Assembly (NCBI RefSeq): GCF_002117125.1
Contig: NZ_CP019344.1
Span: forward strand, 1,488,001-1,552,000
DNA from: Nonlabens spongiae
Lineage (GTDB): Bacteria; Bacteroidota; Bacteroidia; Flavobacteriales; Flavobacteriaceae
Direction: 5' to 3'
Length of the DNA stretch: 64,000 nt
Program-made: the position numbers and the translations under genes
In this document: one piece after another, positions 1,978-60,812 of the stretch
How positions within the stretch are numbered: position 1 is the stretch's first letter
How the letters are laid out: each line of letters begins with the position of its first letter
The notes under the pieces: model-generated
Databases searched by the model: none
Told to the model about the DNA's origin: nothing
What the model saw: the letters and a program-made list of their open reading frames with translations, nothing else

Positions 1978-1993
1978 TCGCTTTCGCGAAAGC
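1978..1993. repeat. Palindromic 16-mer CGCTTTCGCGAAAGCG (intergenic)
   Basis: Perfect copy of the window-wide palindrome, extended by TCT and AGA flanks so that the whole 22-nt span 1976-1997 is self-complementary. It lies just beyond the stop of the helicase gene and before its terminator. Confidence 0.95.
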
Positions 1994-2012
1994 GAGATAA
2001 TTCACATCACCA

Positions 2013-4329: not shown

Positions 4330-4345
4330 CGCTTTCGCGAAAGCG
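4330..4345. repeat. Palindromic 16-mer CGCTTTCGCGAAAGCG (intergenic)
   Basis: Perfect copy immediately downstream of the DedA-like gene stop codon. It is not followed by a T tract, so it is not a standard terminator. Confidence 0.95.
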
Positions 4346-6814: not shown

Positions 6815-7257
6815 AATTGATAATCTGGCAGTTCCTCTATGAAATTGTAGGATTTATGTTCATAATCCATAATACAATAGTAATGAGATAAACCATTAGT
6901 GACCATAAGGTAATCTGCATCGAGAGCTAAATTATATCGAGCAATCTGATCAAATACGTTTTGATCAATTTTCACTTTGGGCGCTTTGCATTCCACCGCT
7001 AGAAAAATAGAACCATCTTTATTATATACGAGAATGTCATAGCGCTTTTTTGTTCCGGCAACGTTGAGCTCCTTTTCAATGTTCATAAGATTTTGAGGGG
7101 TACGCTTTCGCGAAAGCAACATAAAAACAACGTGCTGCCTCACCCATTCTTCGGGTGTCAAATGGACAAACTTTTTACGGATGGGGTCAAAGATCGACTG
7201 TCCTTTTTCCGTATTTTTGATCCTAAATGTGGCTGGTGGCAGTCGCAATGGTATCAT
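6811..7257 (-). CDS. Solitary HsdR N-terminal-like (PD-(D/E)XK) protein
   Basis: The frame opens at 7290, but the methionine at 7257 (MIPLRLPPATFRIK) gives the length usual for Flavobacteriaceae homologues, 148 residues. It resembles the type I restriction R-subunit N-terminal domain, with a nuclease-like core in RYDILVYNKDG...FLAVECKAPK, where D and ExK are the expected catalytic residues. No HsdM or HsdS genes, nor any helicase domain fused to it, are present. It lies divergent to holA with only about 31 nt between starts and overlaps the GT2 gene by 4 nt. A palindromic repeat sits in frame and encodes part of LLSRKRTP. A role in DNA processing is inferred, not shown. Confidence 0.7.
   Translation of the reverse strand: MIPLRLPPATFRIKNTEKGQSIFDPIRKKFVHLTPEEWVRQHVVFMLLSRKRTPQNLMNIEKELNVAGTKKRYDILVYNKDGSIFLAVECKAPKVKIDQNVFDQIARYNLALDADYLMVTNGLSHYYCIMDYEHKSYNFIEELPDYQL
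7104..7117. repeat. Palindromic core GCTTTCGCGAAAGC inside a gene
   Basis: A 14-nt perfect palindrome inside the HsdR N-terminal-like gene. It is translated as LSRKR in this frame, near residue 50 of the protein. Confidence 0.95.
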
Positions 7258-12223: not shown

Positions 12224-12239
12224 CGCTTTCGCGAAAGCG
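12224..12239. repeat. Palindromic 16-mer CGCTTTCGCGAAAGCG (intergenic)
   Basis: Perfect copy between the sugar dehydrogenase and cytochrome c genes, which run in the same direction. Flanked by T and A to give an 18-nt palindrome (12223-12240). No T tract follows. Confidence 0.95.
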
Positions 12240-12748: not shown

Positions 12749-12764
12749 CGCTTTCGCGAAAGCG
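12749..12764. repeat. Palindromic 16-mer CGCTTTCGCGAAAGCG (intergenic)
   Basis: Perfect copy 10 nt after the cytochrome c stop and 525 nt from the previous copy, the closest pair in the window. Confidence 0.95.
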
Positions 12765-16337: not shown

Positions 16338-16997
16338 ATGAGAAATATGAAATATCTACTATTGAGCATTGTTTTTGTTCTCGCTTTCGCGAAAGCGGGA
16401 TCAGCACAAAGTAATTCTGACCAAAAGGCAGAAGAACTGCTCAAGAAAGTGGCTCAAAAATTCAAGAGCTACGACAACTTGTACTTCACCTACAAAGGAA
16501 ACTTTAAAAATGTTAAGAACAGTATCAACACGGACATTCAAGGAGATGCTACCTTAAGCGGTCAGAAATATAATGTGAATTATATGGGAACCACGTTTCT
16601 CTTTGATGGTAATAGACAGTATGTAATCAACCGTGAAGATGAGCAGGTTACAATTTCTAAACCCGCAAGTGAGGATGATGGTATCACTCCGTCAAACATC
16701 TTGTCATTTTACGAGAAGGGTTATACTAAGAAATGGGACATCCTTCAAGATGTAAAAGGTCGTAAAATTCAATACGTGAAATTGATTCCCATAAAATCTG
16801 ATACAGATTATAAGAACGTGCTGCTGGGTATAGACAAGCAATCTAACCATATTTATAACGTAATCATAACTGAAAAGTCTGGTACCGTGGTCACGTTTAC
16901 ACTCAAATCTCTCAAAGTGAACGAGCCGCTGGCAAAAAACACTTTCAGGTTTGACGAGTCTGACTATCCTGATTTTGATATAGAGCAGCTGGACTAG
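16338..16997 (+). CDS. lolA: LolA-like outer membrane lipoprotein carrier
   Basis: A 219-residue periplasmic protein of the LolA family, which ferries lipoproteins from the inner to the outer membrane. The signal peptide (about residues 1-23, cleaved near AGSAQS) is followed by FKSYDNLYFTYKGNF, the repeated beta strands of the open barrel, and a C-terminal FRFDESDYPDFDI. The start directly abuts the ftsK stop. A copy of the palindromic repeat encodes LAFAKAG within the signal peptide hydrophobic/c-region, an unusual case of a repeat supplying part of an export signal. Confidence 0.85.
   Translation: MRNMKYLLLSIVFVLAFAKAGSAQSNSDQKAEELLKKVAQKFKSYDNLYFTYKGNFKNVKNSINTDIQGDATLSGQKYNVNYMGTTFLFDGNRQYVINREDEQVTISKPASEDDGITPSNILSFYEKGYTKKWDILQDVKGRKIQYVKLIPIKSDTDYKNVLLGIDKQSNHIYNVIITEKSGTVVTFTLKSLKVNEPLAKNTFRFDESDYPDFDIEQLD
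16382..16397. repeat. Palindromic 16-mer inside lolA signal peptide
   Basis: Perfect CGCTTTCGCGAAAGCG copy translated as AFAKA within the LolA-like signal peptide. Confidence 0.95.
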
Positions 16998-19648: not shown

Positions 19649-19664
19649 CGCTTTCGCGAAAGCG
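19649..19664. repeat. Palindromic 16-mer CGCTTTCGCGAAAGCG (intergenic)
   Basis: Perfect copy in the 59-nt gap between ribB and murQ, both on the plus strand. Confidence 0.95.
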
Positions 19665-22522: not shown

Positions 22523-23703
22523 GCAAAAACGATTTTTTCAAATATCAGGCGCCCACTACTCCATTTGCTCCTGGAATTGAGATAGAAAAAGCTGAAGGCT
22601 GCACCATAATAGATAAGGATGGTAATGAATATCTAGATCTAGTTGCCGGTGTCAGTGCCTTACCTCTAGGCCATAGGCATCCTGAAGTAGTGAAGGCCAT
22701 GAAAGATCAGATAGATAAGTATCTGCATGTAATGGTTTACGGTGAGTTTTCTCAGGATCCGGCTGTTCAACTCTGTAAAAAACTCGCTGACTTATTGCCA
22801 GAGCCACTCGACATGACCTATTTAGTCAATAGTGGAACTGAGGCGATTGAAGCCTCTATTAAACTGGCACGACGGGCTACGGGTCGCTCAGAAATCGTAG
22901 CCATGAAAAATTGCTATCATGGCAACACACTTGGCTCACTGAGTTTGAGTGATTATGAAGAGCGCAAGGCTCCTTTCAGACCTCTCTTGCCTGATGTAAA
23001 AAACATCAAGTTTAATTGCTTTGCAGACATAAATCTAATCACACATCATACAGCTGGTGTTATTTTAGAAAGTATACAGGGTGGTGCTGGTTTCATTATA
23101 CCGGACTCAAGATGGTGGAAAGCGTTGTTTGACCGTTGTCGTAAGGTGGGAGCGCTCATCATTTTGGATGAAATCCAGCCAGGTATGGGTCGTACTGGTG
23201 CATTATTTTATTTTCAGAAATTGGGACTTGTCCCTGACATCGTGGTTTCAGGCAAAGGTCTGGGAGGCGGTATGCCTATCAGTTCTTTGACCGCCTCGAG
23301 TGAGCACCTTAAACTTTTTGCATCAAATCCCATGTTAGGCCACATTACAACTTTTGGTGGAAATCCAGTGATTGCCGCAGCTGCCCTAGCGACACTTTCG
23401 GTTATAGATCGAGATTTAAAAAGCTTTGATGTTGAGGGTAAAGAATTACGCTTTCGCGAAAGCTTAAACAATCAACACATCGTTGAAATAAGAGGTACCG
23501 GTCTGATGCTTGCTGTCATTTTAAAAGACGATCAACATACCGCAGCCATAGTGGATCGATGCAGGGAAAACGGCGTGCTCTTCTTCTTGCTGCTATTTGA
23601 AAAGCGCGCGGTTCGCATCACGCCGCCACTCACGATAAGCCCGAACGAGATTGATCACGCCTGTGGGGTCCTTCTGGAAGCTATCGATCACTTCTATAAA
23701 TAA
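22519..23703 (+). CDS. Class III (fold I) PLP aminotransferase
   Basis: A 394-residue pyridoxal-phosphate aminotransferase of the acetylornithine/ornithine group, TTG start. Signatures include LVNSGTEAIEASIKLAR, NCYHGNTLGSLSLS, the cofactor-binding LDEIQPGMGRTG and the catalytic lysine in VVSGKGLGGGMP near 250. Substrate cannot be fixed; the family includes ArgD, and no other arginine-synthesis genes are in the window. It overlaps the OstA-like gene by 4 nt. A palindromic core near the 3' end encodes part of LRFRESL. Confidence 0.85.
   Translation: MSKNDFFKYQAPTTPFAPGIEIEKAEGCTIIDKDGNEYLDLVAGVSALPLGHRHPEVVKAMKDQIDKYLHVMVYGEFSQDPAVQLCKKLADLLPEPLDMTYLVNSGTEAIEASIKLARRATGRSEIVAMKNCYHGNTLGSLSLSDYEERKAPFRPLLPDVKNIKFNCFADINLITHHTAGVILESIQGGAGFIIPDSRWWKALFDRCRKVGALIILDEIQPGMGRTGALFYFQKLGLVPDIVVSGKGLGGGMPISSLTASSEHLKLFASNPMLGHITTFGGNPVIAAAALATLSVIDRDLKSFDVEGKELRFRESLNNQHIVEIRGTGLMLAVILKDDQHTAAIVDRCRENGVLFFLLLFEKRAVRITPPLTISPNEIDHACGVLLEAIDHFYK
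23450..23463. repeat. Palindromic core GCTTTCGCGAAAGC inside a gene
   Basis: A 14-nt copy in the aminotransferase gene, translated in the RFRES frame near residue 315. Confidence 0.95.
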
Positions 23704-31551: not shown

Positions 31552-32694
31552 TTACCTGAAGTTAGTTAACACAGATTTAATCCTTTCCCTATTAGAAAAA
31601 TTAAGATTGGAACCAGATGGCAGACAAAGACCTTTTTCAAACAATTTCTCTGCCACCATATCACCATAGAAAGGGCTAGATGTGTAAAGCGGCTGCAAGT
31701 GCATGGGCTTCCAGAGTGGCCTGGATTCTATATTTTGATCATTTAGACCAGCCCTTAAATCCTCTCGAGTAAACCCTGCTTTTTCAGGATCAATTAAAAC
31801 AGCGGTCAACCAGAAATTACTAAAAACCTCATTGTCGAATTCGCTTTGAATAGTCACTCCCGGCATTTCATCGAAAATTTCAGCGTAAAACTCGTTCATC
31901 TCCCTTCTTTTTCCAATATGAAGGTCTAAAACCTGCATTTGACCTCTACCTATACCAGCAGAAACATTACTCAACCTATAATTGTACCCTAAAGCACTAT
32001 GTTGATAATGGGGCGCTTCATCCCGCGCTTGAGTCGCTAAAAAAACAGCTTTTTGCTTATCTAAGGTATTATTACACACGAGTGCTCCTCCACCACTAGT
32101 AGTTATAATTTTATTTCCGTTAAAACTCAAGATTCCGAAGTCTCCAAAAGTTCCACATTTCTGGCTTTTGTATGTACTGCCCAGAGACTCTGCACTGTCT
32201 TCAATGACTTTTATGTCATACGCTTTCGCGAAAGCGTGAATCTCATCCACCTTATACGGCATGCCATAAAGATGTACAGCAATAATAGCTTTGGGTTTCT
32301 TTCCTTTCTTAATACGATCCTTGATTGCCTCTTCCAAAGCATTAGGACATATATTCCAAGAATCTGGCTCGCTATCCACAAAAACTGGTGTAGCTCCTAG
32401 ATAAAGGATGGGATTTGCACTCCCACAAAAGGTAAAACTTTGGCAAATCACTTCATCGCCAGCCTCCACACCTGCCATAATAAGTGCTAGATGGATAGCT
32501 GCCGTACCGCTGCTCAAACAGGCTACAGCATGTTGATTCCCCAGATAGCTTTCTAAATCTTTCTCAAAACCATTAACGTTAGGCCCTAACGGTGCAATCC
32601 AATTGGTTTCAAAAGCCTCATTAACAAATTGCTGTTCTGCACCTCCCATATGTGGTGATGAGAGCCAAATCTTTTCTGGTTGTTCTTGTTTCAT
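31552..32694 (-). CDS. DegT/DnrJ/EryC1/StrS sugar aminotransferase
   Basis: A 380-residue PLP enzyme that aminates a keto sugar nucleotide. Signatures are SSGTAAIHLALIMAGVEAGDEVI, split over residues 61-83, VHLYGMP, VIEDSAESLGS and the catalytic lysine in NGNKIITTSGGG. With the CapD-like dehydratase and PglD-like acetyltransferase it fits the PglE step (4-keto to 4-amino). A palindromic repeat lies in frame, encoding HAFAKAYD. It is separated by 20 nt from the upstream phosphoglycosyl transferase gene. Confidence 0.9.
   Translation of the reverse strand: MKQEQPEKIWLSSPHMGGAEQQFVNEAFETNWIAPLGPNVNGFEKDLESYLGNQHAVACLSSGTAAIHLALIMAGVEAGDEVICQSFTFCGSANPILYLGATPVFVDSEPDSWNICPNALEEAIKDRIKKGKKPKAIIAVHLYGMPYKVDEIHAFAKAYDIKVIEDSAESLGSTYKSQKCGTFGDFGILSFNGNKIITTSGGGALVCNNTLDKQKAVFLATQARDEAPHYQHSALGYNYRLSNVSAGIGRGQMQVLDLHIGKRREMNEFYAEIFDEMPGVTIQSEFDNEVFSNFWLTAVLIDPEKAGFTREDLRAGLNDQNIESRPLWKPMHLQPLYTSSPFYGDMVAEKLFEKGLCLPSGSNLNFSNRERIKSVLTNFR
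32221..32236. repeat. Palindromic 16-mer inside the DegT aminotransferase gene
   Basis: Perfect CGCTTTCGCGAAAGCG copy read in the AFAKA frame (HAFAKAYD), 8.8 kb from the previous copy. Confidence 0.95.
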
Positions 32695-34478: not shown

Positions 34479-35715
34479 TAGTTATAATTTTCTTGAGCTC
34501 TAGGGTGTAGTTATCTGCCAGTTTGTTTCTATCGAAGTGCTTTCTAGCATATTCATAACCTCTGAGCCCCATTTGATCCAGCTCATTTTGATGATCCCTC
34601 ATTTTTCTAGCAGCCGCAACAATTTGATCAATATTCTCTGGTTCAGCATATATACCACAGCCCGCAGTCTCTACCAATTCCCTACTTACTCCGTCGATCA
34701 GCAGAAAAACAGGTTTTTTACATGACATGTAGTCAAATGTCTTGTTTGAATAAATAGTCTTAAAAGTATCCACCTTTTTCAAGACTGATGCCCCCATATC
34801 TGATGCTAGGATATACTTGAAAACCTCGGTTTTAGGAACTGGATCTCTAAAAACTACATTTTTCAAATTGTGTTTTTCAGCATAATCGACTAGCATCTCT
34901 TTTTGCATTCCAGTTCCAATCAATTGAAAAATGACGTTGGTATCCTTCAATCTTTCCGCAGCTTGTAGCAATTGGATCAAATGGTTTGCGACACCATGAG
35001 CGCCTACATAAGTGATAATAAACTTATTGGTAAAACCTAGTTGCTTTCTAAATTCATCAGTATTGAAAGAGGTTTGAAGTTCTTCAGCGAGTGTAAAGTC
35101 AGCAGCGTTTGGAATAAAAGTTATTTTATCCGCCGGCACCCCTTTTTCAACAAGTTTTGTTTTGAAAGCCGGAGTCAGCACATTGATTACAGCTGCCTTT
35201 CTATACATGAATGCTTCAAACTTGTAGGCTAATTTGATGATCATTTTGTTTTTCAAAACCCCTGTATCGACAGCACTCTCAGGCCATAGGTCTCGTACTT
35301 CAAAAACAAAGGGAATCCGGTACCATTTACTCAAAAGGTAAGCCGTAATACCAACAAACAAAGGTGGCGAGGTCACAAGTATAACATCATGTTTCTTCCG
35401 CAATTTGAAGATTCCCGCATAAAGACTGCTAAAAACAAATGAGAAATAACCCCAGAGCCTACCTAAAAAATTGGTGTTATAACTCTCTGAAACATGGCTG
35501 CGCACCACATCTACTTTAGGGTAAAAATCCAGATCCATATAAAAGTAACGTCCTTTGTATCTATCGATTTTTTTTCCGGTATTGTAATGCACCATTCCAG
35601 CAAGCACGCTCATTTCATGACCCTGCTGCGACCACCTGCGTGTCATCTCGTTAAAGCGAGAACCACCACCGTCATTTTTCTCCAGAAAATATTGATGGAT
35701 CAGTAAAATGTTCAT
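34468..35715 (-). CDS. Glycosyltransferase family 4 (WbuB-like)
   Basis: A 415-residue GT-B glycosyltransferase. The N-terminus has [18 protein letters not shown], typical of the WbuB subgroup that moves N-acetyl-fucosamine-type sugars, then the [12 protein letters not shown]-like segment ([12 protein letters not shown]), [14 protein letters not shown], and a C-terminal nucleotide-binding half with [15 protein letters not shown]. The expected ExxE-like segment near the C-terminus is present in weakened form. It overlaps the PglC-like gene by 11 nt and the heparinase-like gene by 4 nt. Confidence 0.87.
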
Positions 35716-37640
35716 GATAGGATTTTGATCTGGGTCGTAATATGATCCGTATTGGAGGCAAAAGTAAGTTTTATGGATTTTTCCTTCGTACCATAATAAC
35801 CGCTATACCACTTTTCGCCCTTTTCAGCGATCAGTTCTTTTCCGTTTGCGTCTGTTGCTTTGATGTTTAACGCTTTCCCTTCGACTCCGCTCAGGGACCG
35901 CGCGAAAGCCTGCCTGTCGTGCCTTGGCAGGCAGGCGGGATTCAACTGAAAATGTTGCTGAAGATCCAGTCCTCTACGATCATGTACTTTATCAATTACT
36001 GTCCAGATATCTTCATTTTTGAATTTGATAGCCTTACGCTGCATCTTGATACCGCCTAAATTACGATAAGCCACCTGACTAAGATCCCATTCAACACGAT
36101 CATCAAACTCTTGAATCTTCCCTCGAGCTTCTTTAATCCAATAAAACCAAACAAAACGACGGCCTCTTACCATGTGGTCACGACCTGCTACCGTGGCCGT
36201 ATTGTGGCCGGCGCTTCCTTGAAAATGATCGTGATATACCTTTTCAGTATTGTATTTATAAGTCCCACAATCCCAGAGGTAATTCACGCCATCTTTCCAA
36301 ATATCCAGATGAAAATTATCAGCTTGGAAGGGTCTGTGTTTGTAGGCTCCACATTTTAAAAATGTTTTTGTGTCGCCCGAATTATGAACAAAATAGCCTC
36401 CCTCTTCAAAAGCATGAATCCCTGAAATATCGATATCTACTTCTTCCACCTGATCAAGTCCATACCAGTTAAGCTCCTCTGACTTTTTAGTGACGGTGCG
36501 GGTAAGTGTAGCTCGTAGAGCATCAAGCTGACTCGTATAGTCACGATAATCGGCATCTGAAAATTTGAAAAAGAGAGCACCGTCATTGTTTCCGTAGTTA
36601 GGCAAAAAACCTGTTTTGGAATCCCGACAAACGTCCAAGAACCTAAGAGACTTTTTAGCTTTTTGATAGACCACATCAGAAAAACGATCATCGTGCAATT
36701 CACTCAAATTGACCGCCCATGTCAATAGTTGAATTACAACACGATGGTAGTTCATGCTGTGCTGCAAGAACGTGCCATCATCATAAATCTGATAGGCGAT
36801 TTCTTCTTCAAACCACTTTTTTCCTTGCGCTGACCACCTTTTACTTTCAGGAAAGAATGGAAACAGCAAACCACTCAAATAGAGCATCAAAGTTTCCGTT
36901 ATCGCATGATTGTTACGCACTGCAATACGAGAAAAATCTATATGTTCCCAAACATGTTGCAACTGGTAATAAATGGCGCTCATGATTTTCTCAAAACGCT
37001 GATCAGTCAGTTGCTCGCTATTTTTATAATAGTACAGCGCATAAGTCCAGTTCAAAATGCGCAAACTTATTTCTTGGCTGCATTTGTACTGTGGTCCAAG
37101 ATTGATAGGATTGCGATCGATAAAATCCTCGATTTCTACCAGCACGGTTTCATCTTGCGCTTGCTGACTGTGGTAGTCATAACGTAAGTAATCGTAAACG
37201 TGGCTGAATCGCGCCCGTTCCCACACATATTTTATATCACCAGCCTCAGCAGACAGGTCTTGGATTTCTGACCAGTGCTTATTCATATCGTAGCGATATC
37301 CCGTACTGGGGTTGACCGACCATTTATCTTCATCTTTAACCTCTAACTTGAGATTATTGAAGAAGGTGTATGTTTTGTTCTCGCTTTCGCGAAAGCGGGA
37401 AATCAAATCATCACTTAGAGATCTAGGAAAATCCAGCGATTCTCTAGACTCGATAAAAAAGGGAATCCCTGCGGCACGCCATTCTTTGAGAGAAATGAAA
37501 CTGCGTTGTGGCATTCCCGTAGGAAAGCGTTTCTTGTACCATCCTAATTTGCTTCTAATCGCGTGCTTCAGACGGTAGGAAACGTAGCGGCTCCCCATGT
37601 TTAAAGACAGGTCGCGTATTTGCTTGAATTTCTCAAACAT
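35712..37640 (-). CDS. Heparinase II/III-like (alginate lyase superfamily) protein
   Basis: The frame is open to 37679, but MFEKFKQIRDLSL at 37640 is the better start because the upstream gene stops at 37633; this gives 642 residues. An alpha/alpha toroid region (about 100-380) precedes the Hepar_II_III beta-sandwich with FQADNFHLDIWKDG and GSAGHNTATVAG. There is no signal peptide, which fits homologues found in polysaccharide loci with bi-domain oxidoreductases rather than secreted lyases. It carries one palindromic repeat (37382) and a second copy split by two in-frame insertions (35871-35940) that add 17 residues. Catalytic role in polymer modification is inferred. Confidence 0.85.
   Translation of the reverse strand: MFEKFKQIRDLSLNMGSRYVSYRLKHAIRSKLGWYKKRFPTGMPQRSFISLKEWRAAGIPFFIESRESLDFPRSLSDDLISRFRESENKTYTFFNNLKLEVKDEDKWSVNPSTGYRYDMNKHWSEIQDLSAEAGDIKYVWERARFSHVYDYLRYDYHSQQAQDETVLVEIEDFIDRNPINLGPQYKCSQEISLRILNWTYALYYYKNSEQLTDQRFEKIMSAIYYQLQHVWEHIDFSRIAVRNNHAITETLMLYLSGLLFPFFPESKRWSAQGKKWFEEEIAYQIYDDGTFLQHSMNYHRVVIQLLTWAVNLSELHDDRFSDVVYQKAKKSLRFLDVCRDSKTGFLPNYGNNDGALFFKFSDADYRDYTSQLDALRATLTRTVTKKSEELNWYGLDQVEEVDIDISGIHAFEEGGYFVHNSGDTKTFLKCGAYKHRPFQADNFHLDIWKDGVNYLWDCGTYKYNTEKVYHDHFQGSAGHNTATVAGRDHMVRGRRFVWFYWIKEARGKIQEFDDRVEWDLSQVAYRNLGGIKMQRKAIKFKNEDIWTVIDKVHDRRGLDLQQHFQLNPACLPRHDRQAFARSLSGVEGKALNIKATDANGKELIAEKGEKWYSGYYGTKEKSIKLTFASNTDHITTQIKILS
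35871..35940. repeat. Palindromic repeat split by two hairpin-forming in-frame inserts
   Basis: Pieces of the palindrome are CGCTTT (35871-35876), CGCGAAAGC (35901-35909) and GGGA (35937-35940). Between them sit a 24-nt insert (35877-35900) with CCCT/AGGG ends and a 27-nt insert (35910-35936) that forms most of a 9-bp stem (35908-35916 with 35928-35936). Removing both restores the uninterrupted repeat seen at 16382 and 37382. Both lengths are multiples of three. Confidence 0.9.
37382..37397. repeat. Palindromic 16-mer inside the heparinase-like gene
   Basis: Perfect CGCTTTCGCGAAAGCG copy read in the RFRES frame (LISRFRESEN), near residue 82 of the protein. Confidence 0.95.
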
Positions 37641-39747
37641 GCTCCCAGCCTCCGTTCTTGAGACTCTCCAGCGCGGCAAATGACGCTAGCGTCGTATTGA
37701 TTAATGAATCCATTTCGATCAATGGTGCTCCACCGCTTTTAATTTGATCAGCAAGCTTTTGAAATTGAGCGCTATGCCCTTTATCCATTTTGTTTTTACT
37801 GCCATTGAATCCCTTGAAACCGTATGCCTTGAGCTTACGCCAGTTGTCTAGAATAAATGTGCGCTCCTTGCTATATACCTCGACACGTTCCTTTGAGTAC
37901 GATTTGCTACCGTTTGAGAAATAGTTTATCACCGCATTTGACCCATCAGCGTACTTGAGCAGAATGGTGGCATTATCAGTATTTTGCTCTGGGTGTTTGC
38001 CCAATGCATTCATACAAACTTCAGTAACCTTACTGCCCGTTAGGTACGAAATCAAGTCTATAAAGTGACAAGCCTCACCTACGATACGGCCACCACCTAT
38101 CTTGAGATCGTGTACCCAAACATCTGCTGGGATATGACCTGCATTCATGGTTGCTGTGATGTTTATGGGCCCACTGCCTAAATGCTTTTTCATTTGTACG
38201 GCTTGAGGCGCAAATCGACGATTGAAACCTACTGTCAGGCTCGCATCAGTTGATTGGTACACCTCGAGTATTTGATCGAGCTCCTCACGGTTGAGTGCTA
38301 ATGGTTTCTCTACAAAAACATTTTTACCAGCTTTAAGCGCAGCGATGACCATACTGGCGTGCAGATTATGACGCGTGGTAATGGCTACGGTATTCACCGC
38401 TGGATCGTTGAGAGCAATCTGCATATCAGTTACACTCTTCTCGATCGAAAACTTTTTTGCCAAAGTCGTTCCTGACAATCCACCAGAGCTTACAATATAT
38501 TTAAGAGGCAAATCAGTTTTCTTGAGTGCTGGCAGCATGGTCATTTTAGTAAAGTTTCCAGCACCTATGATGGCTAGACCTCCACTTTTTTGAGCAACAC
38601 CTTGATTAGTTGAAACGACTACTTCATTAGTATAGGGCTCAGATTGAGAGTAATCTAAAATGGATGCTATACTTTTTGAACTGCCTATATTACCGTAGAT
38701 TTTTTGATAATCAGCGAGGTCGATGACTTCAGTGATTAACGGCTCTACGTCGATATAATTTTTTGAGATAGAGTTGAGGATCGTCTCAAAATTGCGTTTC
38801 TCCGTCCAGCGCACAAATGGTAAAGGGTAATCTTGACCCTTGTTTTCATAGTCATCATCGTAACGTCCTGGCCCGTAAGAACAAGAAACCTGAAAAGTCA
38901 ATTCCTTTTGGTAGAATTCAGCACGGCTGAGCTCCAAACCTATCACACCCACTAAAATAATGCGCCCGCGCTGGCGGCTCATTTGAGCAGCTTGCGAGAT
39001 AACCTCGTTTGATTTTGTGGATGCGGTGATGATAACGCCGTCTGCTCCTACTCCATCAGTCATTTGCATGATGGTCTTAACGGGATCCTGACCAGCACTC
39101 GGGTTGATCGTTTGTACTCCCCATTCTTGAGCCAATTTCAGTTTAGTCTCATCAAAATCGATCCCGAGCACGTTGCAGCCATTAGCTTTCAACAACTGCG
39201 CGGTGATCAATCCTATGAGGCCTAGACCTGTCACAACGATGGTTTCTCCCAGTGTAGGTTCTAAAAGCCTGACTCCCTGAAGGCCGATACTGCCTATAAC
39301 TGTAAATGCTGCTTGCTCGTCAGAAACATTATCTGGAATGGCTGCCACAAGATTTTTAGGAACGCAAACATATTCTGCATGGCTACCATTAGAAGCTACG
39401 CGATCCCCTTTTTTAAATTCAGAAACTCCCTGTCCTACCTCGATGACCTCACCTACATTACAATAACCCAAGGGAAGTGGCTCGCCCAGTTTATTAAAAA
39501 CTGTTTCAAGAGTAGGCAACAGCCCATCAGTCTTGATCTTGTCGAGTACCATCTTCACCTTATCAGGCTGCTGTCTGGCTTTTGAAATAAGATTAGACTT
39601 CCCAAACTCCACCAGCATACGCTCGGTTCCCAAAGAAACCAATGATTTTGTGGTCTTGATAAGCACATGACCAGATTTCACTTTGGGAGCTGGTAGCTCC
39701 TCAAGAATGGTTTCTCCGGTTTTGAATGATTGGATGATTTGTTTCAT
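37633..39747 (-). CDS. Bi-domain oxidoreductase (alcohol dehydrogenase-like + Gfo/Idh/MocA)
   Basis: A 704-residue fusion. The N-terminal half (about 1-350) is a medium-chain, zinc-type dehydrogenase: GEPLPLGYCNVGEVIEVG, GDRVASNGSHAEY and the NAD fold VTGLGLIGLITAQL. The C-terminal half (about 385-700) is a Gfo/Idh/MocA oxidoreductase: LAIIGAGNFTKMTMLP, VFVEKPLALNREEL and GGGRIVGEACHFIDL. The same fusion occurs next to heparinase II/III-like genes in several capsule loci. It overlaps the heparinase start by 8 nt and follows the PaaK-like gene directly. The sugar substrate is unknown. Confidence 0.92.
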   Translation of the reverse strand: MKQIIQSFKTGETILEELPAPKVKSGHVLIKTTKSLVSLGTERMLVEFGKSNLISKARQQPDKVKMVLDKIKTDGLLPTLETVFNKLGEPLPLGYCNVGEVIEVGQGVSEFKKGDRVASNGSHAEYVCVPKNLVAAIPDNVSDEQAAFTVIGSIGLQGVRLLEPTLGETIVVTGLGLIGLITAQLLKANGCNVLGIDFDETKLKLAQEWGVQTINPSAGQDPVKTIMQMTDGVGADGVIITASTKSNEVISQAAQMSRQRGRIILVGVIGLELSRAEFYQKELTFQVSCSYGPGRYDDDYENKGQDYPLPFVRWTEKRNFETILNSISKNYIDVEPLITEVIDLADYQKIYGNIGSSKSIASILDYSQSEPYTNEVVVSTNQGVAQKSGGLAIIGAGNFTKMTMLPALKKTDLPLKYIVSSGGLSGTTLAKKFSIEKSVTDMQIALNDPAVNTVAITTRHNLHASMVIAALKAGKNVFVEKPLALNREELDQILEVYQSTDASLTVGFNRRFAPQAVQMKKHLGSGPINITATMNAGHIPADVWVHDLKIGGGRIVGEACHFIDLISYLTGSKVTEVCMNALGKHPEQNTDNATILLKYADGSNAVINYFSNGSKSYSKERVEVYSKERTFILDNWRKLKAYGFKGFNGSKNKMDKGHSAQFQKLADQIKSGGAPLIEMDSLINTTLASFAALESLKNGGWEHV

Positions 39748-42106: not shown

Positions 42107-42313
42107 AATTTCTTATTGAGAGGCAAAGGTAAGAGCAGGTGGTCAAGTTTTCACGTTCAGGAACTATTTTTATGAGTAGTACTTAAGTTGTGTACGCTTT
42201 CGCGAAAGCGAAATAATCAAAAATTAACTTGTTTATTTGAAACCCCTGCAATTAATGCTATCATTACTACCTAAGATCAAATTCTTCCATAGTACCTCAA
42301 AATTAGTCATGTT
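42107..42313. promoter_or_regulatory. Intergenic gap with candidate -7 box TACCTTTG and palindromic repeat
   Basis: The longest gap in the polysaccharide locus. TACCTTTG on the minus strand (42131-42124) matches TAnnTTTG, but the only nearby -33 TTG is too close (12 nt). The palindromic repeat lies further upstream at 42195-42210. An internal promoter for 41093-42106 and following genes is plausible. Confidence 0.35.
42195..42210. repeat. Palindromic 16-mer CGCTTTCGCGAAAGCG (intergenic)
   Basis: Perfect copy in the 207-nt gap between two glycosyltransferase genes. It is the last copy before a 5.8-kb AT-rich segment with none. Confidence 0.95.
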
Positions 42314-47907: not shown

Positions 47908-49128
47908 TTACCGGTTCTCAAATACCCCACAAAAATCCAGTACCACTTTGTCAGTCACTTTTGGCAATGATTTAAACTCATTATGCGCAACAAGATAGAC
48001 TACTATGTCTGCTTTCGCGAAAGCGGTTTTATAATCCGTCAATTTAAACACATTGTGGGATTCAATATTAGGCTCTACTATAAAGTATTCTTCATCTTGT
48101 GAATCTTGCAATACTTTCTGCGCGATGTATTTTGCTGGGGATTCTCTCAAATCATCGATATTCGGTTTAAAGGCGAGTCCCATGATCGCAATGCTGGGCT
48201 GGCGACCGTGCTTGAGCCTAAATTCCAGTTTGGCACTTTTTACTTTCTCCGCACACCAAAATGATTTGTAATTATTGATCTCTCGAGCTTTCCCGATGAT
48301 CTGGGATTCCATGGGAAAATCTGCCGTGATGAAGTAAGGATCTACCGCTATGCAATGACCTCCCACTCCACACCCGGGCTGTAGAATATTCACGCGTGGA
48401 TGCTTATTTGCCAAATGGATCAATTCCCAGACATTGATGCCGGCCTTATCACAGATAAGCGATAGCTCATTGGCAAATGCGATTTGAACGTCTCGAGATG
48501 AGTTCTCGACCAGCTTACACATCTCAGCGGTGCGTGCATTAGTAGGGTGCAACTCACCTTTTACGTACTTTGCGTAAAAACCAAGGGCTTTTTGAGTGCT
48601 TTTCTCGTCTACTCCACCTATCACGCGGTCGTTGTGCACCAATTCATGCATGACATTCCCAGGTAAAACCCTTTCTGGACAGTAAGCAATATGCAATTTG
48701 TCTTTAAGCTCTGCACGCTCAGAATAGATCAGTTCCATCATTTTTTCAGTAGTTCCTACCGGGCTGGTTGATTCAATGATGTAAAGATCTCCCTCTTTGA
48801 GAAGTGGTAATATTCCTTTTGTGGCTGCTTCTACAAAAGAAATGTCCGGTTCGTTCTTATCCTTGAACGGCGTGGGAACCACCACTAAATAGGTGTTTGC
48901 CTCGACTGCTTTTGTCGCAGCTTTCAAGAAACCATTCTCAACGGCTTTAGCCACAGCGTCTCCTAAGTCTGGCTCAACGATGTGGATCTTTCCTTGATTG
49001 ATTGTATCTACAACGCTTTGATTGATGTCCACTCCATGAACATGAACATTTTGAGAGGCTATTAGTGCTGCAGTAGGTAGGCCTATGTAGCCCAATCCTA
49101 TCATTACTACTTCTGGTTGACGTTCCAT
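47908..49128 (-). CDS. wecC: UDP-N-acetyl-D-mannosamine dehydrogenase
   Basis: A 406-residue UDP-glucose/GDP-mannose dehydrogenase family enzyme. The NAD site is MIGLGYIGLPTAALIAS near 9-25; the catalytic cysteine lies in LQPGCGVGGHCIAVDPYF near 252-270; ESTSPVGTT and AYCPERVLPGNVMHEL are typical of WecC. It oxidises UDP-ManNAc to UDP-ManNAcA, and is adjacent to wecB, which makes its substrate. A palindromic core lies in frame and encodes TAFAKADI near the C-terminus. The wecB stop is directly upstream. Confidence 0.92.
   Translation of the reverse strand: MERQPEVVMIGLGYIGLPTAALIASQNVHVHGVDINQSVVDTINQGKIHIVEPDLGDAVAKAVENGFLKAATKAVEANTYLVVVPTPFKDKNEPDISFVEAATKGILPLLKEGDLYIIESTSPVGTTEKMMELIYSERAELKDKLHIAYCPERVLPGNVMHELVHNDRVIGGVDEKSTQKALGFYAKYVKGELHPTNARTAEMCKLVENSSRDVQIAFANELSLICDKAGINVWELIHLANKHPRVNILQPGCGVGGHCIAVDPYFITADFPMESQIIGKAREINNYKSFWCAEKVKSAKLEFRLKHGRQPSIAIMGLAFKPNIDDLRESPAKYIAQKVLQDSQDEEYFIVEPNIESHNVFKLTDYKTAFAKADIVVYLVAHNEFKSLPKVTDKVVLDFCGVFENR
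48011..48024. repeat. Palindromic core GCTTTCGCGAAAGC inside wecC
   Basis: A 14-nt copy read in the AFAKA frame (YKTAFAKADIVVY), near residue 370. Confidence 0.95.
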
Positions 49129-50262: not shown

Positions 50263-50278
50263 CGCTTTCGCGAAAGCG
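50263..50278. repeat. Palindromic 16-mer in the wecB leader
   Basis: Perfect copy in the 49-nt gap between the rmlA end and the preferred wecB start. It would be inside the coding sequence only if the upstream ATG (50286) were used. Confidence 0.9.
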
Positions 50279-54051: not shown

Positions 54052-54067
54052 CGCTTTCGCGAAAGCG
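54052..54067. repeat. Palindromic 16-mer between the epimerase and dehydrogenase genes
   Basis: Perfect copy in the 37-nt gap between the TviC-like stop (54073) and the preferred TviB-like start (54035). Confidence 0.93.
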
Positions 54068-60796: not shown

Positions 60797-60812
60797 CGCT
60801 TTCGCGAAAGCG
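60797..60812. repeat. Palindromic 16-mer CGCTTTCGCGAAAGCG (intergenic)
   Basis: Perfect copy in the 208-nt gap between the SPT-like gene and the end of the cysteine synthase family gene. TTA and TAA flank it, so the self-complementary span is 22 nt (60794-60815). Confidence 0.95.

Follow-up and report, generated by a model that had tools for sequence, protein, structure and literature searches.

The small dispersed repeat SDR5 was reported to be inserted at a precise point of the highly iterated cyanobacterial palindrome HIP1, with directed cutting suggested as a partial explanation (PMC4390886). REPs located inside palindromes were described from three species, in one of which the target has hundreds of copies, and REPs were found within genes as well; GTAG-23 REPs sit in small palindromes of T. 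roseum, and CGTC-tagged REPs are known from Bacteroidetes among others (PMC3733652). Rickettsia palindromic elements insert into coding sequences without breaking the frame and thereby lengthen the proteins (PMC10969869, PMC3733652), and recognition of REPs by TnpA(REP) is treated in PMC8266576. A literature search found no report on the sequence of the palindrome described below or on highly iterated palindromes in Flavobacteria, and judging from the titles listed, papers on palindromes in the presumed genus deal with other ones.

The window, that is the whole stretch of 64,000 nt analysed here, contains a heparinase-like gene in which a copy of the palindrome CGCTTTCGCGAAAGCG is split by two small repeats. 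Genomes of the genus are designated by G numbers, the genome of the window being G000, and loci by L numbers. We consider it probable, at roughly 80%, that this palindrome serves as a docking site for very small hairpins, the palindrome coming first, the repeat later and the reading frame being selected.

The split palindrome and its host gene

The bases at 35871..35940 were re-read, and the CGCTTTCGCGAAAGCG copy was found to be interrupted by two in-frame repeats of 24 nt and 27 nt, with exactly the coordinates and bases given in the original prediction (Table 1). The 24-nt insert sits after CGCTTT and the 27-nt insert on the far side of CGCGAAAGC, and each insert junction can slide by one C. 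When both inserts are removed, the rejoined pieces and the flank read GCTTTCGCGAAAGCGGGA, identical to the copies at 16382 and 37382, and the proposed restoration was thus recovered. The two inserts amount to 17 codons, in agreement with the proposed in-frame addition of 17 residues. Each insert had also been described as a hairpin, which stands for the 27-mer, predicted to fold strongly (-9.1 kcal/mol, z -3.69) with 11 pairs, including two G-T pairs, and is poorly borne out for the 24-mer, for which weak folding is predicted when it is taken alone (-1 kcal/mol, z +0.84).

Table 1. Palindrome copies, inserts and host gene in the window (positions of the whole stretch)
Feature	Position	Strand	Remarks
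Intact palindrome	1979..1994	.	
Intact palindrome	4330..4345	.	
Palindrome, 1 mismatch	7103..7118	.	outer base
Intact palindrome	12224..12239	.	
Intact palindrome	12749..12764	.	
Intact palindrome	16382..16397	.	GGGA flank as at the heparinase locus
Intact palindrome	19649..19664	.	
Palindrome, 1 mismatch	23449..23464	.	outer base
Intact palindrome	32221..32236	.	
Heparinase II/III-like gene, 655-aa ORF	35712..37679	-	start TTG, first ATG is codon 14
CGCTTT, left arm of split palindrome	35871..35876	.	
24-nt REP-like insert CCCTTCGACTCCGCTCAGGGACCG, TTCG family	35877..35900	+	23 genome matches at <=2 mismatches
CGCGAAAGC, right arm of split palindrome	35901..35909	.	
27-nt hairpin insert, CCTGCCTG...CAGGCAGG kind	35910..35936	+	2 genome matches; fold z -3.69
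GGGA, right flank of palindrome site	35937..35940	.	identical flank at 16382 and 37382
Intact palindrome in heparinase-like gene	37382..37397	.	read as RFRES
Intact palindrome	42195..42210	.	
Palindrome, 1 mismatch	48010..48025	.	outer base
Intact palindrome	50263..50278	.	
Intact palindrome	54052..54067	.	
Intact palindrome	60797..60812	.	

The protein was assigned to the heparinase II/III family by Pfam (PF16889, PF07940), and the 17 extra residues lie at about residues 583-601. Homologues were collected by tblastn with the 655-aa protein, giving 33 loci from named records and four further genomes (three congeners and one of the same order; L105 was excluded from these rows as it does not cover the insert place). 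The segment was present in none of these 37 rows. In the best-aligned homologues (e.g. L067, L068, L069, L101, L102, L103 and L104) precisely 17 residues are missing at this place, and many others align poorly across the insert loop. The reading that the protein family has long possessed the 17 residues, which would then resemble repeats by coincidence, is hardly credible: nothing was found in its favour, the 37 rows speak against it, and both elements recur in other genes. The segment was accordingly rejected as a part of other heparinases, and no palindrome-free homologue with the same 17 residues came to light. As the remaining palindrome-coded residues align with the homologues without gaps, the palindrome itself added no length here. 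Among the heparinase homologues read, none had a bare palindrome at the insert place, so that the order of events in this gene is inferred from other genes. In the predicted structure (mean pLDDT 87.0, alignment of 20 sequences), residues 592-598 have a pLDDT <50 and form a loop between strands 573-579 and 604-610; the added peptide is thus placed by the model in a low-confidence loop.

Apart from the split copy, the palindrome is found whole 15 times in the window, with three copies differing from the 16-mer at one outer base. At <=2 mismatches, CGCTTTCGCGAAAGC gave 30 strand matches (15 sites) against 0.06 expected from shuffles. In G000 the core has 834 forward matches at <=1 mismatch, with 716 exact forward matches of the core 15-mer, and exact forward core matches range from 226 to 784 per genome in 23 same-genus genomes.

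Several further properties of the palindrome were recorded. Intact copies are spaced more evenly than by chance in the G000, G004 and G008 stretches, window included, with a gap CV of 0.51-0.55 (1000 random placements: mean 0.86-0.89, lowest 0.68); the mean gap is about 4 kb, and gaps <1 kb make up 2-3.5% vs about 23% in random placements. This even spacing suggests a function in chromosome upkeep. Over about 15-20 bases the flanks are symmetric, C being scarce to the left and G to the right (198 sites, 852 kb of genome), and a flank-orientation score gave no signal against chromosome position. Two intact copies lie on a second contig (L287, 13,959 bases), and the 16-mer was found in 41 stretches of viral contigs.

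Insert families, junction and reading frame

The arrangement CGCTTT, 24 nt and CGCGAAAGC with exact arms occurs at seven places in the genome, the heparinase locus included. With slightly looser arms, nine 24-nt inserts lie between both arms in G000, and two more have shifted or decayed arms (371328, 1464285). The 24-nt query was taken from inside a palindrome, which biases its 23 matches toward palindrome neighbours. Both matches of the 27-nt element (<=3 mismatches) lie within a palindrome copy, at different arm points. The two inserts therefore recur inside the palindrome elsewhere, which is in line with the original prediction. All 14 matches of a 33-nt family in the genome lie within palindromes, a base of the arm having decayed in two cases, and single inserts of 39 nt and 48 nt occur once each.

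The split form GCTTT^insert^CGCGAAAGC with exact arms was found in eight of 23 same-genus genomes, with several insert families, and gave no match in the other 15. Strand matches numbered 32 in G004, 31 in G008, 20 in G000, 6 in G005, 5 each in G006 and G022, 3 in G019 and 2 in G020, where one G008 place is counted on both strands and one G000 match contains an intact palindrome. The fetched DNA stretches contained 112 split places, of which at least two look like duplicate copies at contig ends (L187 like L168, L147 like L120). Insert lengths in all 112 were 19 nt (1), 20 nt (32), 21 nt (47), 24 nt (16), 33 nt (14), 39 nt (1) and 48 nt (1). In these stretches, which were chosen for holding split copies and hence under-sample free insert copies, the CCTG family (20-21 nt) scored both arms at 70 of 80 matches, one arm at six and neither at four. 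TTCG copies without palindrome arms also exist: they account for 14 of 25 matches within the G000 stretches, though decayed arms are present at a few of these.

The usual insertion point, GCTTT^CGCGAAAGC, is off-centre. The check for target duplications found none in the standard split form, in which no target base is lost or duplicated. Relative to this point, the insert strand is constant in 15/15 inserts of the 24-nt TTCG kind, 14/14 of the 33-nt family and all 28 scorable 21-nt inserts (19 could not be scored). Given three exceptions, the junction is not absolute: the 27-nt element enters the arm behind GCT or G; at 371328 the insertion is displaced by one base and brings two additional bases; and an insert in pbpC of G005 has lost the TTC of the arm.

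Reading frames were called by a crude longest-first rule, and by this rule 25 of the 26 inserts inside ORFs are divisible by three, in agreement with the claim that inserts are tolerated when they keep the frame; the binomial frame figures ignore shared descent. Inserts divisible by three lie inside ORFs in 25/79 cases vs 1/33 of the others (Fisher p 5e-4), or 21/57 vs 1/21 without G008 (p 0.004). Comparing 21-nt with 20-nt inserts, 13/42 vs 1/24 were inside ORFs in G004 and G008 together (p 0.012; G004 alone p 0.054). In the G004 stretches, 76 of 130 intact palindromes are inside ORFs; against these, 20-nt inserts are depleted (1/12, p 0.001) and 21-nt inserts show no significant lack (9/21, p 0.24). 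The sole 20-nt insert inside an ORF (L177) is near a doubtful start, and its G008 orthologue is called at a gene edge. Outside called ORFs lie 75 of the 112 split copies.

Inserts in palindromes are read through as peptides, and the proposed growth of repeat within repeat does yield new protein segments: nine of ten listed ORFs and the heparinase-like protein read through their insert. By family assignment, the genes concerned include DNA ligase, a penicillin-binding protein 1C-like protein, aldehyde dehydrogenase/MaoC, a glycosyltransferase, a DUF3686 ATPase, a sortilin-like and a thioredoxin-like protein, and an enolase-C/MenC-like enzyme with MenC_N below its cut-off; L047, a further insert-bearing ORF, had no Pfam family. 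The motif AFAR.LSG.E.KA occurs in 5/8 proteins read with a 24-nt insert, the heparinase-like protein included.

Orthologous sites and the mode of insertion

Orthologous sites were read in rows covering the insertion point, which were available for 17 of 20 matching genomes in a gene that we take to be monooxygenase-like, for 21/21 in the ligase and for 14 genomes in pbpC; pbpC gave matches in all 23 genomes, many of them solely via a distant paralogue. In pbpC, the palindrome is intact in 10 of the 14 rows; the G006 copy has a different reading frame and is perhaps independent. The G000 gene has a 24-nt insert in the palindrome. A different repeat is present in G005 (net +24 nt vs its sister G010), and G003 has a third insert, which belongs to the TTCG kind and lies on the opposite strand, with a net gain of 24 nt vs G012/G016 and a decayed right arm; G015 has no palindrome. 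A quick ligase tree, in which 3/17 inner branches were starred, pairs G005 with G010 and groups G003 with G012 and G016, so that by this grouping the bare palindrome is the neighbouring state for the G005 and G003 inserts in pbpC. In the monooxygenase-like gene, the palindrome is bare in G020 and G022 and carries a 21-nt insert in G004 and G008, and the remaining 13 of the 17 rows have neither palindrome nor insert; the span measures 73 nt in 12 of these and 70 nt in the other, G009.

Two further sites show independent hits at one place. At the first, a 20-nt CCTG insert in G004/G008 is found in the mirror arm and on the other strand in the G020 orthologue. At the second, a 21-nt CCTG insert in G004/G008 faces a 24-nt TTCG insert in G006; orthology of these palindromes is likely rather than certain, as the flanks do not align until 15-98 bases away. 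The G022 stretch of the MenC-like gene lacks the palindrome and, read by eye, equals that of G000 in length when the 33-nt insert of the latter is discounted. The DNA ligase gene has a split palindrome, with a bare one in none of the 20 other rows, and the order of events is unreadable there. The ligase linker (L230-L256) was also seen to vary in length, its aligned span ranging from 82 to 253 nt in 21 rows with other in-frame repeat-like segments.

Orthologous gene positions thus offer a natural series of no palindrome, bare palindrome and palindrome with hairpin, from which both the succession of events and the filtering by reading frame can be read directly. The claim that small hairpins enter the palindrome is upheld by these empty sites, which record entry into a palindrome already present. 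In the genes with readable orthologues, the alignments demonstrate insertion into an existing palindrome at the usual point together with a frame filter. In pbpC, a cell-wall gene, three different in-frame segments have been placed at the same palindrome within one genus. The idea that the palindrome itself is an inserted repeat was rejected where the orthologues could be read, since lengths there are unchanged and the palindrome arose by substitution.

Under the docking explanation, the palindrome would form first, through constant-length substitutions, and a hairpin repeat would later enter it, usually at GCTTT^CGCGAAAGC. The heparinase locus would have been hit twice, once at the usual point and once in the other arm, giving 17 new loop residues, and the frame rule would reflect purifying selection acting after insertion. 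Because the junction and the strand are fixed and no duplication is seen, a nicking enzyme may have inserted single-stranded hairpin DNA strand-specifically; the likeliest candidates would be Y1/HUH transposases like those of IS200/IS605-TnpA(REP), or some other enzyme cutting the palindrome. Several observations count against parts of the docking explanation, among them the TTCG copies without arms and the exceptions to the usual junction. Insert strand had no clear pattern, judged by eye with the origin not located, against chromosome halves or GC skew at third codon bases, and single-strand transposition on the lagging strand would predict a bias. Several families share one junction, which a REP-specific transposase would not predict. 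It is tentatively conceivable that an enzyme nicks the palindrome at GCTTT^C and that any small single-stranded hairpin is captured there; evenly spaced palindromes would then be distributed docking ports, repeatedly offering in-frame peptides to proteins.

Nine Y1_Tnp matches were found in the genome of the window. At the eight loci read, there was no CCTG hairpin within about 1.5 kb of Y1_Tnp and no Y1_Tnp gene flanked on both sides by CCTG/TTCG hairpins; a TTCG-type repeat lies about 1.2 kb from one of them, the weak partial Y1 match at L116. This missing link between gene and hairpin likewise speaks against a specific REP transposase. The genome also has three nearly identical small Y1 transposase genes (G000:C1 530102, 917683 and 1397943), presumably IS200-like by their size, and several longer Y1 matches.

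The main rival to docking is that a hairpin, inserted into one palindrome in a rare event, spread to the others when their arms recombined or took part in template switching, most split copies then being allele copies and not separate insertions. Such copying would carry junction and strand along at no cost, inserts of one family are nearly identical within a genome, and the CCTG and 33-nt families are almost confined to palindromes. Template switching would also give the arms completed to a perfect long palindrome at G008 L132:10168, which are not completed in the G004 orthologue L185:9915. However, the shared arms measure just 6 and 9 bp, each of several unrelated families and species would need a founder at the same junction, and the same pbpC site was struck by three different inserts; on balance we regard copying as unlikely. 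It could further be supposed that the split form is itself mobile, arms and hairpin moving jointly, and that a bare palindrome is what remains when the hairpin has been lost. Arms and insert are indeed common to the split copies, and two thirds of these (75/112) lie outside called ORFs, but this is very improbable with 716 bare 15-mer matches against 20 split matches in G000 and no split match in 15/23 genomes. Palindromes also appear in genes at unchanged length, and the sister taxa of G005 and G003 carry the bare form. The pbpC and monooxygenase-like orthologues disfavour a mobile split unit.

Comparison with described systems

The proposed docking at the palindrome resembles several known systems in part. 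Like HIP1 of cyanobacteria, the present palindrome is of high copy number within and between genes; it differs from HIP1 in sequence (GCTTTCGCGAAAGC here vs GCGATCGC, which the palindrome of the window does not match), in its spacing of about 4 kb and in belonging to another phylum. The likeness to SDR5 in HIP1 is that a palindrome of very many copies receives its inserts at a single fixed point, here GCTTT^CGCGAAAGC, and the differences are several insert families at one point, empty-site orthologues and in-frame gene inserts. With the GTAG-23 REPs of T. roseum it shares REP-like repeats in a palindrome with hundreds of genome copies, but the sequences are different and the end tag is mostly absent. 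Among the 112 inserts, GTAG was found at some position in three, and CGTC <=6 bases from an end in four. Read on the reverse strand, three of 15 TTCG-type 24-nt inserts begin with CGTC (all in G006) and nine with CGGTC, that of the heparinase locus included. The heparinase-locus insert and the CCTG and 33-nt families, unlike the CGTC-tagged REPs, do not begin with the tag.

Rickettsia elements are likewise in-frame palindromic inserts in unrelated protein genes, but measure about 150 bp vs 19-48 nt here, where the inserts are nested in another palindrome. The REP/TnpA(REP) (RAYT) system is similar in its short dispersed hairpins, the main families here being 20-33 nt in 8/23 genomes, and in the presence of Y1 domains in the genome; it differs in that no transposase gene at the eight loci read is flanked by the tested hairpins and the tag is mostly absent. 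A fixed short target 5' of the insert, a single strand and no target duplication are as in IS200/IS605-type insertion, with the 27-nt element, the 371328 insert and the G005 pbpC insert as exceptions. The present case unites these known features in one genus and adds the series of empty sites. The oddity of SDR5 in HIP1 has a counterpart in another phylum, which provides a second system for testing how palindromes of such high copy number are cut, and by what.
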